From Haladaptatus paucihalophilus DX253 (GTDB lineage: Archaea; Halobacteriota; Halobacteria; Halobacteriales; Haladaptataceae): a stretch of DNA of 64,000 nt. How positions within the stretch are numbered: the stretch's first letter is position 1; each line of letters begins with the position of its first letter. Shown here one piece after another: positions 149 to 14,223 of this stretch. Position numbers and translations under genes: made by a program. The stretch is taken from assembly GCF_000376445.1 (NCBI RefSeq), contig NZ_AQXI01000001.1, positions 2,016,962-2,080,961 of the forward strand. Direction: 5' to 3'. Below the pieces are notes generated by a model. It was not told the DNA's origin, did no database searches, and saw nothing but the letters and a program-made list of their open reading frames with translations.

Positions 149-223
149 CAACTACCGAATCGTGTCCGATGGTCAACTACCGAATCGTGTCCGATGGTCA
201 ACTACCGAATCGTGTCCGATGGT
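149..223. repeat. Three perfect 25-bp tandem repeats at the end of orc1
   Basis: The unit CAACTACCGAATCGTG + TCCGATGGT occurs three times without mismatch (149-173, 174-198, 199-223). A degenerate fourth copy begins at 224 and is the orc1 3' coding end. The orc1 stop codon (223-225, minus strand) sits on the junction between the last perfect copy and the degenerate copy, so the array appears to have grown from the gene's own 3' end. Confidence 0.95.
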
Positions 224-1719
224 CAACTGTCGAACCGCGCCTGTTGCATGAACGGTTGAATATCGTCGATGTCGCCGAGCCGTGAGTCGGATTGGAGGAC
301 TGCCTCGGTCTCCTCGATGGGTACCGAGAGGCTGATCTCTTTCGTGCGCCCGTAGCGGCCCTTCGAGACGACGACGGCGTTGACGATGCCGAGCATGTCG
401 AGTTCGCTGATGAGGTCGGTGACGCGGCGTTGGGTAAGGATATCCGCGTCGATCTCCTCACAGAGGTGTTTGTAGACGTTGTACACCTCGCCCGTGTTGA
501 TGTTGTGGACGCCGTTTTTCTCAAGCGAGATGGTCGAAAACAGGACGAGTTTGGATTGCGTGGGGAGCGTGCGGACGACTTCGACCACGCGGTCGAGTTC
601 GATTTTGTCCTGTGCCTTTCGGACGTGGCCCTCCTCGACGCGTTCGGCTTGGTCGCGTTCGGCGAGTTCGCCCGCCGTCCGAAGCAAGTCGAGCGCCCGT
701 CGAGCGTCACCGTGTTCCTGTGCAGCGAAGGCGGCACACAGCGGAATCACGTCGTCGGAAAGGGCGTCCTCCTTGAACGCCACCTCGGCGCGGTGCTGAA
801 GGATGTCCCGGAGTTGGTTCGCGTCGTAGGGCGGGAAGACGATTTCCTCTTCTCCCAAACTGGACTTGACGCGGGGGTCGAGGAAATCGGTGAACTTCAG
901 GTCGTTGCTGATGCCCATGATAGACACGCGCGAGTTGTCGAGTTCGGAGTTCATCCGCGAGAGGTTATAGAGCGTGTCGTCGCCGGATTTCTCGACCAGT
1001 TTGTCGATTTCGTCCAGCATGATGACGACGACGCGTTCCTGATAATCGACGGCCTCGAAAAAGGTATTGTACACGCGGTCGGTCGGCCACCCGGTCATCG
1101 GAACCGGTTCTATCTCTTCCGAATCAGCTTCGAGTTCCTCGATTCGCTCGTCGATCTCCTGAACGGAGGCAAAATCGACGTTCGCCAACTGTTCGGATTC
1201 GGCAGTCACGCCCTCGCGGATGTCTTTCAGTTCCTCGATTCGATTTTCGATGTCGGACAAATTGTTCTCGATGAACTTGTTGGCGAGTTGCGCGAGCACG
1301 CGGTACTGCGTGTCCGTTATCTCGCAGTTGATGTACTCGACCTCGCACGGGACTTCGTACTTCAGCGAGGTTCGTTCGAGTTCCTGACTCACGAACTTGG
1401 CGCTCGCCGTCTTCCCGGTCCCCGTCTTCCCGTAAATGAGGATGTTCGACGGCGTTTCGCCGCGTAGTGCGGCGACGAGGATGGTCGCCATCCGGTTGAT
1501 CTGCTCCTTCCTGTGGGGGAGTTCGTGTGGCGTGTACGAGGGACGAAGCACTTCCTTGTTCTCGAAGATCGGCTCGCCGCTGAGCAGATCGTCGAACAAC
1601 CCGTGATTGCCCTCCTCGTCCGAGTCGTCCAAGACGACATCGTCCAAATCGATGCCCTCGAAGCCACGGTTCATGTGGCCGGTTCGTTCGTTCGGCGGGT
1701 CGGTATTTTCGTCTGACAT
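223..1719 (-). CDS. orc1: Orc1/Cdc6 family replication initiator
   Basis: This 498-residue AAA+ initiator should bind ORB repeats at the adjacent origin and load the MCM helicase. Visible motifs are Walker A GKTGTGKT (97-104), Walker B IMLDEID (233-239), a sensor I stretch near 267-275 (SIMGISNDLKF) and an ARRALDLL helix of sensor II near 340. A C-terminal winged-helix domain covers about the last 100 residues. Between Walker A and B there is a Glu-rich, probably helical insert (about 150-205). An acidic leader of about 50 residues precedes the ATPase core. The start used is the ATG at 1717-1719. The gene faces away from the 1.66-kb origin region, and an ORB site lies only about 14-36 bases upstream of its start codon, which suggests autoregulation (inference). 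Confidence 0.97.
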   Translation of the reverse strand: MSDENTDPPNERTGHMNRGFEGIDLDDVVLDDSDEEGNHGLFDDLLSGEPIFENKEVLRPSYTPHELPHRKEQINRMATILVAALRGETPSNILIYGKTGTGKTASAKFVSQELERTSLKYEVPCEVEYINCEITDTQYRVLAQLANKFIENNLSDIENRIEELKDIREGVTAESEQLANVDFASVQEIDERIEELEADSEEIEPVPMTGWPTDRVYNTFFEAVDYQERVVVIMLDEIDKLVEKSGDDTLYNLSRMNSELDNSRVSIMGISNDLKFTDFLDPRVKSSLGEEEIVFPPYDANQLRDILQHRAEVAFKEDALSDDVIPLCAAFAAQEHGDARRALDLLRTAGELAERDQAERVEEGHVRKAQDKIELDRVVEVVRTLPTQSKLVLFSTISLEKNGVHNINTGEVYNVYKHLCEEIDADILTQRRVTDLISELDMLGIVNAVVVSKGRYGRTKEISLSVPIEETEAVLQSDSRLGDIDDIQPFMQQARFDS

Positions 1720-1732
1720 ACGTCGGCTTGGT

Positions 1733-1755
1733 ACCCCTTCGTTTCGACTGGAGTT
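1733..1755 (-). repeat. ORB site in the orc1 promoter
   Basis: ACCCCTTCGTTTCGACTGG reads on the plus strand, so the canonical GAAACGAAGGGGT core is on the minus strand. It lies immediately upstream of the orc1 start codon at 1719. Confidence 0.85.
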
Positions 1756-2517: not shown

Positions 2518-2540
2518 ACCCCTTCGTTTCGGGTGGAACG
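2518..2540 (-). repeat. ORB site, left member of the inverted pair
   Basis: ACCCCTTCGTTTCGGGTGGA is a near-consensus haloarchaeal ORB. It is followed by a G-string (about 2549-2568) and then the AT-rich region. Confidence 0.9.
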
Positions 2541-2698: not shown

Positions 2699-2721
2699 GT
2701 TTCCACCCGAAACGAAGGGGT
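2699..2721 (+). repeat. ORB site, right member of the inverted pair
   Basis: GTTTCCACCCGAAACGAAGG followed by GGT. It faces the copy at 2518-2540 across the AT-rich stretch and is flanked by C-rich and G-rich strings that are themselves partly complementary. Confidence 0.9.
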
Positions 2722-2956: not shown

Positions 2957-2980
2957 AACCCCTTCGTTTCCAGTGGAAGT
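2957..2980 (-). repeat. ORB site
   Basis: AACCCCTTCGTTTCCAGTGG is the copy closest to the usual haloarchaeal ORB. Its reverse complement shares 19 consecutive bases with the site at 11119-11137. Confidence 0.9.
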
Positions 2981-5298: not shown

Positions 5299-5320
5299 CT
5301 GGAGTGGAAACGAAGGGGTT
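5299..5320 (+). repeat. ORB site downstream of oapC
   Basis: CTGGAGTGGAAACGAAGGGG followed by TT matches the origin ORB core without change over GGAAACGAAGGGGTT. It lies in the 207-bp gap between oapC and the micro-gene at 5369. Confidence 0.85.
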
Positions 5321-10978: not shown

Positions 10979-11316
10979 GACGCGAGAGATCGTCGCGGAC
11001 CACGAACGACGCGGTGGACCAGAATGCCACGGCCGGACAACGACAACTATTGTCGTGGGGAGGTACGTTTCGTCCGGGGTCGGTTCGTCCGAAATTCCGC
11101 CGCCTGTGGCCGATTTTTCACTGGAAACGAAGGGGTTGGTGAGCGGTTTCGTATCCGAACTATGTCACCTTGGGCCATCGAACGCGACCGAGTTTTGTCT
11201 GCCGTCTCGGTTCGGCTACTGACGGCTCCATACCGTTTCAGGGGACGGTTTCGGTAGCGGGTCGAGCGGCGGGTCTTCCGCTTCCGTGTCCCGTTTTCTA
11301 CTCGAAAGAAGGGGGT
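10979..11316. other. Intergenic region carrying ORB sites
   Basis: This 338-bp gap shows no credible gene on either strand. Its main content is a near-perfect ORB (11116-11139) and a weak ORB-like sequence close to the end (11294-11318). Confidence 0.6.
11116..11139 (+). repeat. ORB site 8 kb from the origin
   Basis: The 19-base run CACTGGAAACGAAGGGGTT (11119-11137) is identical to the reverse complement of origin ORB 2957-2975. It lies outside any gene, between the S9 peptidase and the zinc-ribbon gene. Confidence 0.9.
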
Positions 11317-12449: not shown

Positions 12450-13961
12450 GTGCCACTCGAAACCCCGGCTCGAATCGTCAGAGAACTCACGAGTCGCGGG
12501 TACAACGCCGACCGCGAGGCCGTGACGCTCCTCGCGTCCGCCCCTGACCCCGGAACGGCGCTCGAACGTGCAGTCGAATCCGCCCCCGAGGACGCCCTGA
12601 AACTCTCCGTCGAACACGTGCGAACGGTTCTCAATGATTCCTCGGACGGGGCGCGTGACCCCTCCGCTTCAGGTGGAGTTTCTGCCGCGAAATCGACAGC
12701 AGACGCGACTTCATCTCCAGTTGAAACGAAGGGGTCTGTGTCACGAAGTCCCACCGAACAATCGGTGGACATCCTCAACGACATGACCGGCGCGAGCACT
12801 GGGACCGGCGAATACGACGATTTCGTCACGGTGTTCCGCGATCGGTTCCAGCGCCTTTCGGGCAAACTTCGTGGCCGGGTGAACACCCGTCCGACGAACG
12901 CCGTCGCCAGCATGCCCGGCGGAAGCGACGCCGCCATCGTCGGCATGATAAGCGACATTCGCTCCACGGCGAGCGGGCACTGGCTCGTCGAACTCGAAGA
13001 CACGAACGGGACCTTCCCGTGTCTCATTATGAAGGACCGAGAGTTCGCCAGCGTCGTTGACGAGCTCCTGTTGGACGAAACCATCGCCGTCGAGGGAACG
13101 CTCTCCGACGACGCAGGCATCCTGTTCGTGGACTCGCTTCACTTCCCCGACGTGCCACGGACCTACCGACCGTCGACCGCCGACCGCCACGTGCAGGCCG
13201 CGCTCATCAGCGACGTGCACGTCGGCAGTCAGGAGTTCATGGCCGACGCGTGGCATCGGTTCGCCAACTGGCTTCACACGGAGGAGGCCGAACACGTCGA
13301 ATACCTCCTCATCTGCGGCGATATGGTCGAGGGCGTCGGTATCTACCCGAATCAGGACGAGGAACTCGACATCATCGACATCTTCGAGCAGTACGAGGAG
13401 TTCTCGGAGTACCTGAAGGAGGTGCCGGGCGACTTGGAGATCGTCATGATTCCCGGCAACCACGACGCGGTTCGACTCGCCGAACCGCAACCGGGATTCG
13501 ACGACGAACTCCGCTCCATCATGGACGTCCACGACGCGAAGATCACGAGCAACCCCTCCACGGTGACGATTGAGGGGGTCTCGGTGCTGATGTACCACGG
13601 CGTTTCGCTGGACGAAGTTATCGCCGAACTGCCCGCGGAGAAGGCGAGTTACGAGGAACCGCACAAGGCGATGTATCAACTCCTCAAAAAACGCCACGTC
13701 GCGCCGCAGTACGGGGGCCACACCCGCGTCGCGCCGGAGGAGAAAGACTACCTCGTCATCGACGAGGTGCCCGACATCTTCCACACCGGCCACGTTCACA
13801 AACTCGGTTTCGGCAAGTACCACAACGTCCTCGCCATGAACTCCGGCTGTTGGCAGGCCCAGACGGATTTCCAGAAGAGCGTGAACATCGACCCCGACTC
13901 CGGATTCGCCCCCATCGTCGATTTGGACACGCTCGACGTGACCGTTCGAAAGTTCGTCTGA
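12450..13961 (+). CDS. polD1: DNA polymerase D small subunit (DP1), proofreading exonuclease
   Basis: This 503-residue small subunit of the archaeal replicative polymerase D carries the 3'-5' exonuclease. An N-terminal helical domain (about 1-65) is joined by a Ser/Ala/Thr-rich linker (about 66-115) to an OB-fold (about 140-230). The Mre11-like metallophosphoesterase follows, with motifs ISDVHVGS, CGDMVEG, PGNHDAVR, YHGVSLD and TGHVHKLGF and the end motif NSGCWQAQT. The start is GTG 12450; an ATG at 12448 is out of frame. Two ORB-like sequences of opposite orientation are embedded in the codons of the linker. The large subunit DP2 is not in the window. Confidence 0.97.
   Translation: MPLETPARIVRELTSRGYNADREAVTLLASAPDPGTALERAVESAPEDALKLSVEHVRTVLNDSSDGARDPSASGGVSAAKSTADATSSPVETKGSVSRSPTEQSVDILNDMTGASTGTGEYDDFVTVFRDRFQRLSGKLRGRVNTRPTNAVASMPGGSDAAIVGMISDIRSTASGHWLVELEDTNGTFPCLIMKDREFASVVDELLLDETIAVEGTLSDDAGILFVDSLHFPDVPRTYRPSTADRHVQAALISDVHVGSQEFMADAWHRFANWLHTEEAEHVEYLLICGDMVEGVGIYPNQDEELDIIDIFEQYEEFSEYLKEVPGDLEIVMIPGNHDAVRLAEPQPGFDDELRSIMDVHDAKITSNPSTVTIEGVSVLMYHGVSLDEVIAELPAEKASYEEPHKAMYQLLKKRHVAPQYGGHTRVAPEEKDYLVIDEVPDIFHTGHVHKLGFGKYHNVLAMNSGCWQAQTDFQKSVNIDPDSGFAPIVDLDTLDVTVRKFV
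12658..12678 (-). repeat. ORB-like site inside polD1 linker
   Basis: ACCCCTCCGCTTCAGGTGGA resembles the minus-oriented origin ORBs (C-string plus CAGGTGGA end). It encodes part of the linker (PSASGG). Confidence 0.6.
12713..12736 (+). repeat. ORB site inside polD1 linker
   Basis: TCTCCAGTTGAAACGAAGGG followed by GTCT contains the invariant GAAACGAAGGGGT core. It encodes SPVETKGS in the linker and faces the site at 12658-12678, about 35 bases away. Confidence 0.8.
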
Positions 13962-13985: not shown

Positions 13986-14010
13986 TTTTCCAGTCGAAAT
14001 GGTGGGGTTG
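13986..14010 (+). repeat. Degenerate ORB-like site after polD1
   Basis: TTTTCCAGTCGAAATGGTGG followed by GGTTG keeps TTTTCCAGT, GAAA and GGGGTTG of the ORB with about four changes. Confidence 0.5.
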
Positions 14011-14223
14011 ATTTCCAGAGTACCTCGCCAAAAACTTCGAACCGAACGTGGCTCGTCGGTTGAAATTGCCGTGCCTCGAATTTCAAACACCGAAATCCGA
14101 TTCCGCACTTACAGATGCGTTCTCAAACTGCCATCGGTGGATTGGTAGAATATAGATGAATTTGGGTGAGATTTGCGAAAATGTACTTCCGTTCACATTC
14201 GGAAATAGCTATCGTCGGTTATC

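Follow-up and report, generated by a model that had tools for sequence, protein, structure and literature searches.

The window analyzed here is a 64,000-nucleotide stretch of the Haladaptatus paucihalophilus DX253 genome in which orc1 is followed by the adjacent oriC1, by homologues of oapB and oapC, and then by polD1. The polD1 gene, which shares 96% identity with polD1 of Haladaptatus sp. DYF46, lies about 11 kb from orc1 and carries an inverted pair of ORB sequences within its coding region rather than in the intergenic DNA beside orc/cdc6. The genes and sites that concern the pair are the following.

223-1719, minus strand: orc1/cdc6 initiator gene of oriC1 (Pfam Cdc6_C, Cdc6_lid, AAA)
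1734-1753, minus strand: ORB immediately upstream of the orc1 start codon, kept in nearly all relatives (consensus scan)
2519-2538, minus strand: left member of the oriC1 inverted ORB pair (consensus scan)
2701-2720, plus strand: right member of the oriC1 inverted ORB pair, about 182 bp from its partner (consensus scan)
2959-2978, minus strand: further ORB in the oriC1 region (consensus scan)
5299-5318, plus strand: ORB-like site between oriC1 and polD1 (consensus scan)
11116-11135, plus strand: intergenic ORB upstream of polD1 (consensus scan)
12450-13961, plus strand: polD1, DNA polymerase D small subunit, DP1 (Pfam DNA_pol_E_B and Metallophos)
12659-12678, minus strand: left ORB of the intragenic pair, in the PSASGG codons of polD1 (consensus scan, 3 mismatches; PWM score 20.7)
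12679-12714, no strand: spacer between the two polD1 ORBs, its length but not its sequence kept across haloarchaea
12715-12734, plus strand: right ORB of the intragenic pair, in the SPVETKG codons of polD1 (consensus scan, 0 mismatches; PWM score 33.4)
13988-14007, plus strand: weaker intergenic ORB-like site immediately downstream of polD1 (consensus scan)

The nine ORB sites in the 64-kb window all lie before position 14100, and shuffled sequences contained on average 0.12 such sites and never more than 2. The 12-base ORB core GAAACGAAGGGG occurs nine times in the 4.3 Mb genome, and seven of these copies, the polD1 site among them, are located between 1.7 and 12.8 kb of the window, the part that spans oriC1 and polD1. 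Only two copies were found outside this region (G000:C1:1560781-1560792 and 1950100-1950111; L001 and L002). The polD1 pair carries the oriC1-type core TCCANNNGAAACGAAGGGG, as does oriC1 of the same genomes. By eye, tandem GAGTCGGTGGGT-type units adjoin the left oriC1 ORB at approximately 2405-2470.

The preliminary description had placed two ORB-like sequences of opposite orientation in polD1, and the consensus scan bore this out. The right ORB (12715-12734, plus strand) reads CTCCAGTTGAAACGAAGGGG and matches the consensus YTCCANTNGAAACGAAGGGG at every position; the left ORB (12659-12678, minus strand) reads CTCCACCTGAAGCGGAGGGG and is the weaker of the two because it has three mismatches to that consensus; the synonymous-recoding p for this site was 0.0005. 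The gap between paired polD1 ORBs is about 36-38 bp, with 36 nt between the 20-mers in the window. The pair encodes the peptides PSASGG and SPVETKG at PolD1 residues 70-76 and 89-95, in what had been described as a disordered linker. The AlphaFold model of PolD1 had low confidence overall (mean pLDDT 52); the lowest values fell within residues 65-129 (27-31 across 71-110), and residues 66 to 120 were without secondary structure. The model thus agrees with a disordered linker around the ORB peptides, but falls short of proving one.

The geometry of the pair was compared among haloarchaeal polD1 genes by scanning 80 polD1 loci and then further loci from other genomes. Only ORBs outside polD1 (233 sites upstream of polD1) entered the scoring matrix, and the best left-minus/right-plus pair was sought at any spacing from 19 to 200 bp. 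Measured between the ORB starts, the spacing of the best pair was 57 bp in 119 of 154 distinct polD1 genes and 54 bp in 10 of the 154, and a few further genes had spacings of 69 or 75 bp. With column-permuted matrices the count at the modal spacing averaged 12 and reached at most 61, compared with the 119 observed. The distance from the polD1 start to the pair ranged widely, from about 200 to over 400 nt, so the spacing, rather than the position in the gene, is the rigid quantity. Spacings of 54, 57, 69, 72, 75, and 78 bp were seen in the polD1 linkers of L042, L053, L054, L178, L180, L186, and L198. Spacings of 60, 63, and 66 bp were never seen among polD1 pairs, the strong pairs being spaced 54, 57, 69, or 75 bp; this may reflect helical phasing, the independent events being too few to claim a rule.

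Not every lineage keeps both sites. Halorubrum-like genomes retained the right ORB alone in polD1 (L084, L087, L153, L158, L163, L164, and L181), and in several of these genes it was near-perfect. The PWM scan found neither ORB in polD1 of L160, L173, L189, L202, and L205. Among early-branching families, L176 and L177 had no polD1 ORB site in the scan and L251 had one left-type site only. The Haloferax pair is degenerate, and Haloarcula hispanica counts among the species with a strong pair.

Synonymous recoding and codon choice both showed that selection acts on the DNA of the pair. For each polD1 gene, 500 synonymous recodings of the N-terminal part were generated from the codon usage of that gene, and the whole N-terminal region was searched for the best pair at any spacing from 20 to 100. 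None of the 500 recodings reached the observed pair score in 144 of 154 polD1 genes; counts across genomes are not independent because the genomes share ancestry, while the recoding test compares each genome only with itself, and the flanking sequence is essentially randomized. For the codon test, the sites were located through the peptide alone and not through a DNA score. At the ORB peptides, proline was encoded by CCA in 100 of 101 cases (6% in the rest of the gene), glutamate by GAA in 101 of 101 (26%), and glycine by GGG in 99 of 101 (17%). Valine was GTT in 52 of 52 (7%), threonine ACT in 52 of 52 (5%), and a further glycine GGA in 38 of 39 (5%). The codon over the degenerate ORB bases varied freely and encoded V, P, A, G, H, or D. 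Mean consensus frequency reached 0.88 in each of the two ORBs, compared with 0.47-0.51 for the spacer (0.51) and flanks. As in a dual-coded element, the DNA is conserved beyond what the protein requires. The earlier proposal that the DNA site fixes the linker codons is therefore upheld by the recoding and peptide-anchored codon tests: among relatives the motif is conserved beyond synonymous expectation while the spacer and flanks diverge, and the core codons, instead of changing freely among synonyms, are nearly invariant.

The distribution of the element was determined by searching 292 haloarchaeal genomes for the 57-bp pair pattern with one mismatch allowed. The pattern was detected in 162 of the 292, usually once per genome, and a control pattern had no match in the same genomes. 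It was confined to haloarchaea: none of the 101 non-haloarchaeal genomes among 120 drawn from the phylum contained it. Shuffles, the control pattern, and the column-permuted matrices rule out a chance origin of the polD1 pair. The hosts were almost all replication genes, with 37 of 41 retrieved matches in polD1, three in orc1, and one in a ribbon-helix-helix/zinc-ribbon gene. This last match belongs to a divergent haloarchaeon (G286), in which the gene (L206:1308-1949, minus strand) holds the pair instead of polD1 and encodes PISSTG and APVETKG.

The three orc1 matches were second copies in their genomes. They fall in the long, disordered insertion that follows Walker A and characterizes one family (Natrialbaceae-type); there the full 57-bp inverted pair occupies L234:1468-1543, L210:1501-1574, and L212:1501-1574. 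An intragenic ORB-like site that beat synonymous recoding (p 0.005 or less) was present in 26 of 31 orc1 genes with the long insert and in 5 of 67 without it. In addition, nearly all relatives scanned had an ORB immediately upstream of orc1, and the conservation of this site before the start codon suggests Orc1 autoregulation.

In nearly all of 98 judgeable loci polD1 lay 10 kb or less from orc1, mostly 1-4 kb. By a hand count in a non-random sample, 12 of the 22 genomes whose polD1 was separated from orc1 by more than 10 kb had the strict pattern, as did 83 of the 146 linked ones. These similar proportions indicate that retention does not need linkage to the origin, and a strict dependence of the pair on nearness to oriC1 was rejected on the same counts. 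The pair was kept where polD1 was about 193 kb (G045, a strong pair) or about 42 kb (G175) from orc1; it was lost or degraded in two lineages (G174/G124 and G183) with polD1 more than 100 kb away or on another contig.

We interpret the polD1 pair as a dual-coded, non-origin Orc1-binding element that most likely acts on its host gene, a reading to which we assign a probability of about 0.45. In the family, one Orc1 molecule is bound per ORB, in a polar manner (PMC12141716, PMC7776575), and the sequence of the polD1 pair predicts that it, too, is bound by Orc1. Two oriC1-type Orc1 molecules would occupy the pair jointly, with the G-strings pointing outward and the linker tolerating the peptides that the DNA dictates. 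The bound pair could act as an Orc1-dependent roadblock within polD1, for example by reducing transcription of polD1 at high levels of free Orc1. Such feedback would parallel the ORB before orc1 and the ORBs within the orc1 genes of one family, and no initiation would be expected at the pair itself. Regulation of polD1 by Orc1, which had been raised as a possibility from the window, is the function we prefer because the pair follows relocated polD1 genes and, of all other genes, only orc1 recurrently hosts it. Regulation of the promoter type is not suggested, since the distance between the pair and the polD1 start ranges so widely. The Halorubrum-like genomes that keep one ORB, the few lineages that lost both, and the two lineages in which a distant polD1 lost or degraded the pair count against feedback on the host gene. 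Because polD1 and orc1 mostly lie near oriC1, regulation of the host gene and a role near the origin are hard to separate. Slightly more tentatively, a rigid, codon-embedded Orc1 dimer site may couple the initiator to the synthesis of the replication machinery in haloarchaea and so form a feedback circuit.

The main rival reading, which we consider rather unlikely, is that the pair titrates or inactivates the initiator as a high-affinity Orc1 sink, in the manner of datA for DnaA or oriC2D for Cdc6E. Such a sink would double soon after oriC1 fires and limit re-initiation, and its fixed geometry could let two Orc1 molecules lock together or hydrolyze ATP. By their ORB sequence the sites are of the initiator type and lie outside the origin proper, many ORBs surround oriC1 and polD1 in the window, and the usual closeness of polD1 to orc1 would suit a sink; the 38-bp spacer could also hold Orc1 without leaving room for helicase loading. 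The E. coli datA locus and the DnaA boxes of the dnaA promoter are likewise initiator sites outside an origin, although the system is bacterial and its initiator is unrelated to Orc1. To our knowledge, those sites do not lie in the codons of a replicative polymerase. They serve titration and autoregulation (cited in PMC3936714). In Haloarcula hispanica, oriC2 is restrained by an ORB-rich region located downstream of cdc6E, an effect that the authors attributed to titration of Cdc6E (PMC3936714). This region, oriC2D, resembles the polD1 element in having non-origin ORBs and a proposed binding of the initiator, but it is intergenic, contains 11 ORBs, and serves Cdc6E and oriC2, whereas the polD1 element is one rigid oriC1-type pair in codons found throughout the class (PMC3936714). 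A sink would work at any location and intergenic DNA would be cheaper, yet the pair stays in polD1 and is found elsewhere mainly in orc1. The pattern was also about as frequent in unlinked as in linked genomes of the hand-counted sample, and two sites would add little capacity next to the ORBs of the origin itself.

It is improbable that the ORB core is recognized by a different protein, such as an Orc/Cdc6 paralogue or a nucleoid protein, with the pair serving as a mark of chromosome structure instead of influencing expression. Haloarchaea have many Orc paralogues, and in Sulfolobus an essential origin motif is bound by a nucleoid protein that has more than 300 sites on the chromosome (PMC12141716). 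However, the core of the polD1 sites matches the ORBs of the neighboring oriC1, and ORB types are specific to their initiators (PMC3528665).

We regard a secondary or dormant replication origin, at which the pair would recruit Orc1 and MCM and could initiate replication, as very improbable. The polD1 pair shares with the haloarchaeal oriC1 inverted pair a good ORB core, the relative orientation, and outward-pointing G-strings, and to this extent the preliminary description was right that it imitates the origin pair. The polD1 pair, however, lies inside a coding gene, and origin-like pairs in the same loci were spaced 179-386 bp instead of 57 bp, which leaves a spacer of roughly 160-370 bp compared with 38 bp in polD1. 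GC between the ORBs was 0.51 in the origin-like pairs; the polD1 spacer had a mean GC of 0.646, equal to that of polD1, and lacks the AT-rich unwinding element. The G fraction in the 12 nt 3' of the core was 0.35-0.36 in the polD1 pair and 0.58-0.59 at origins, and the halophile-specific extended G-string was absent after the polD1-pair core. In H. hispanica, removal of one ORB impaired oriC1, and alteration of the extended G-string of either ORB abolished the function of minimal oriC1 (PMC3936714). The short GC-rich spacer and the missing extended G-string thus set the pair apart from the origin pair and speak against the secondary initiation site that had been proposed. Finally, the peptides (PSVSTG and SPVETKG) recur among polD1 genes and SPVETxG is found also in Orc1 inserts, as would be expected if they were functional PolD1 linker motifs with the DNA likeness as a by-product, but the recoding and codon tests rule out a protein motif as the main cause: for a given peptide the codons hardly vary and are unlike those in the rest of the gene, the amino acids vary exactly at the degenerate ORB bases, and the left-site peptide differs because the same DNA is translated there in reverse-complement orientation.

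Selection on the DNA of the pair across haloarchaea suggests that the initiator acts outside the origin in a manner not yet described. Studies of haloarchaeal origins do not mention polD1 (PMC3528665, PMC3936714), and a Haloferax review remarked only on the closeness of the DP1 gene to oriC1 (PMC7776575). The survey of haloarchaeal origins covered only intergenic regions beside orc/cdc6 genes (PMC3528665) and would therefore miss ORB elements embedded in codons. No earlier report of the polD1 element was found in the open full-text literature; priority is not certain because subscription journals were outside the search. The pair bears on how archaeal replication initiation is limited and timed, a largely open question. 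If the preferred reading is correct, 57-bp inverted ORBs in the polymerase gene, and in the initiator gene of some lineages, would constitute an archaeal replication feedback circuit in coding DNA that escapes intergenic origin searches. As a class-wide, essentially single-copy element of fixed geometry, the pair is a precise target for synonymous mutagenesis, which can separate the feedback, titration, and dormant-origin models.

The element also clearly exemplifies how the protein sequence of a disordered linker can be dictated by a DNA-binding site, here a putative one. At the position of GAA in origin ORBs, the left polD1 ORB of relatives mostly reads GGA or AGA. In the polD1 frame this yields serine (TCC or TCT) instead of phenylalanine (TTC), which looks like a compromise between the DNA site and the composition of the linker.
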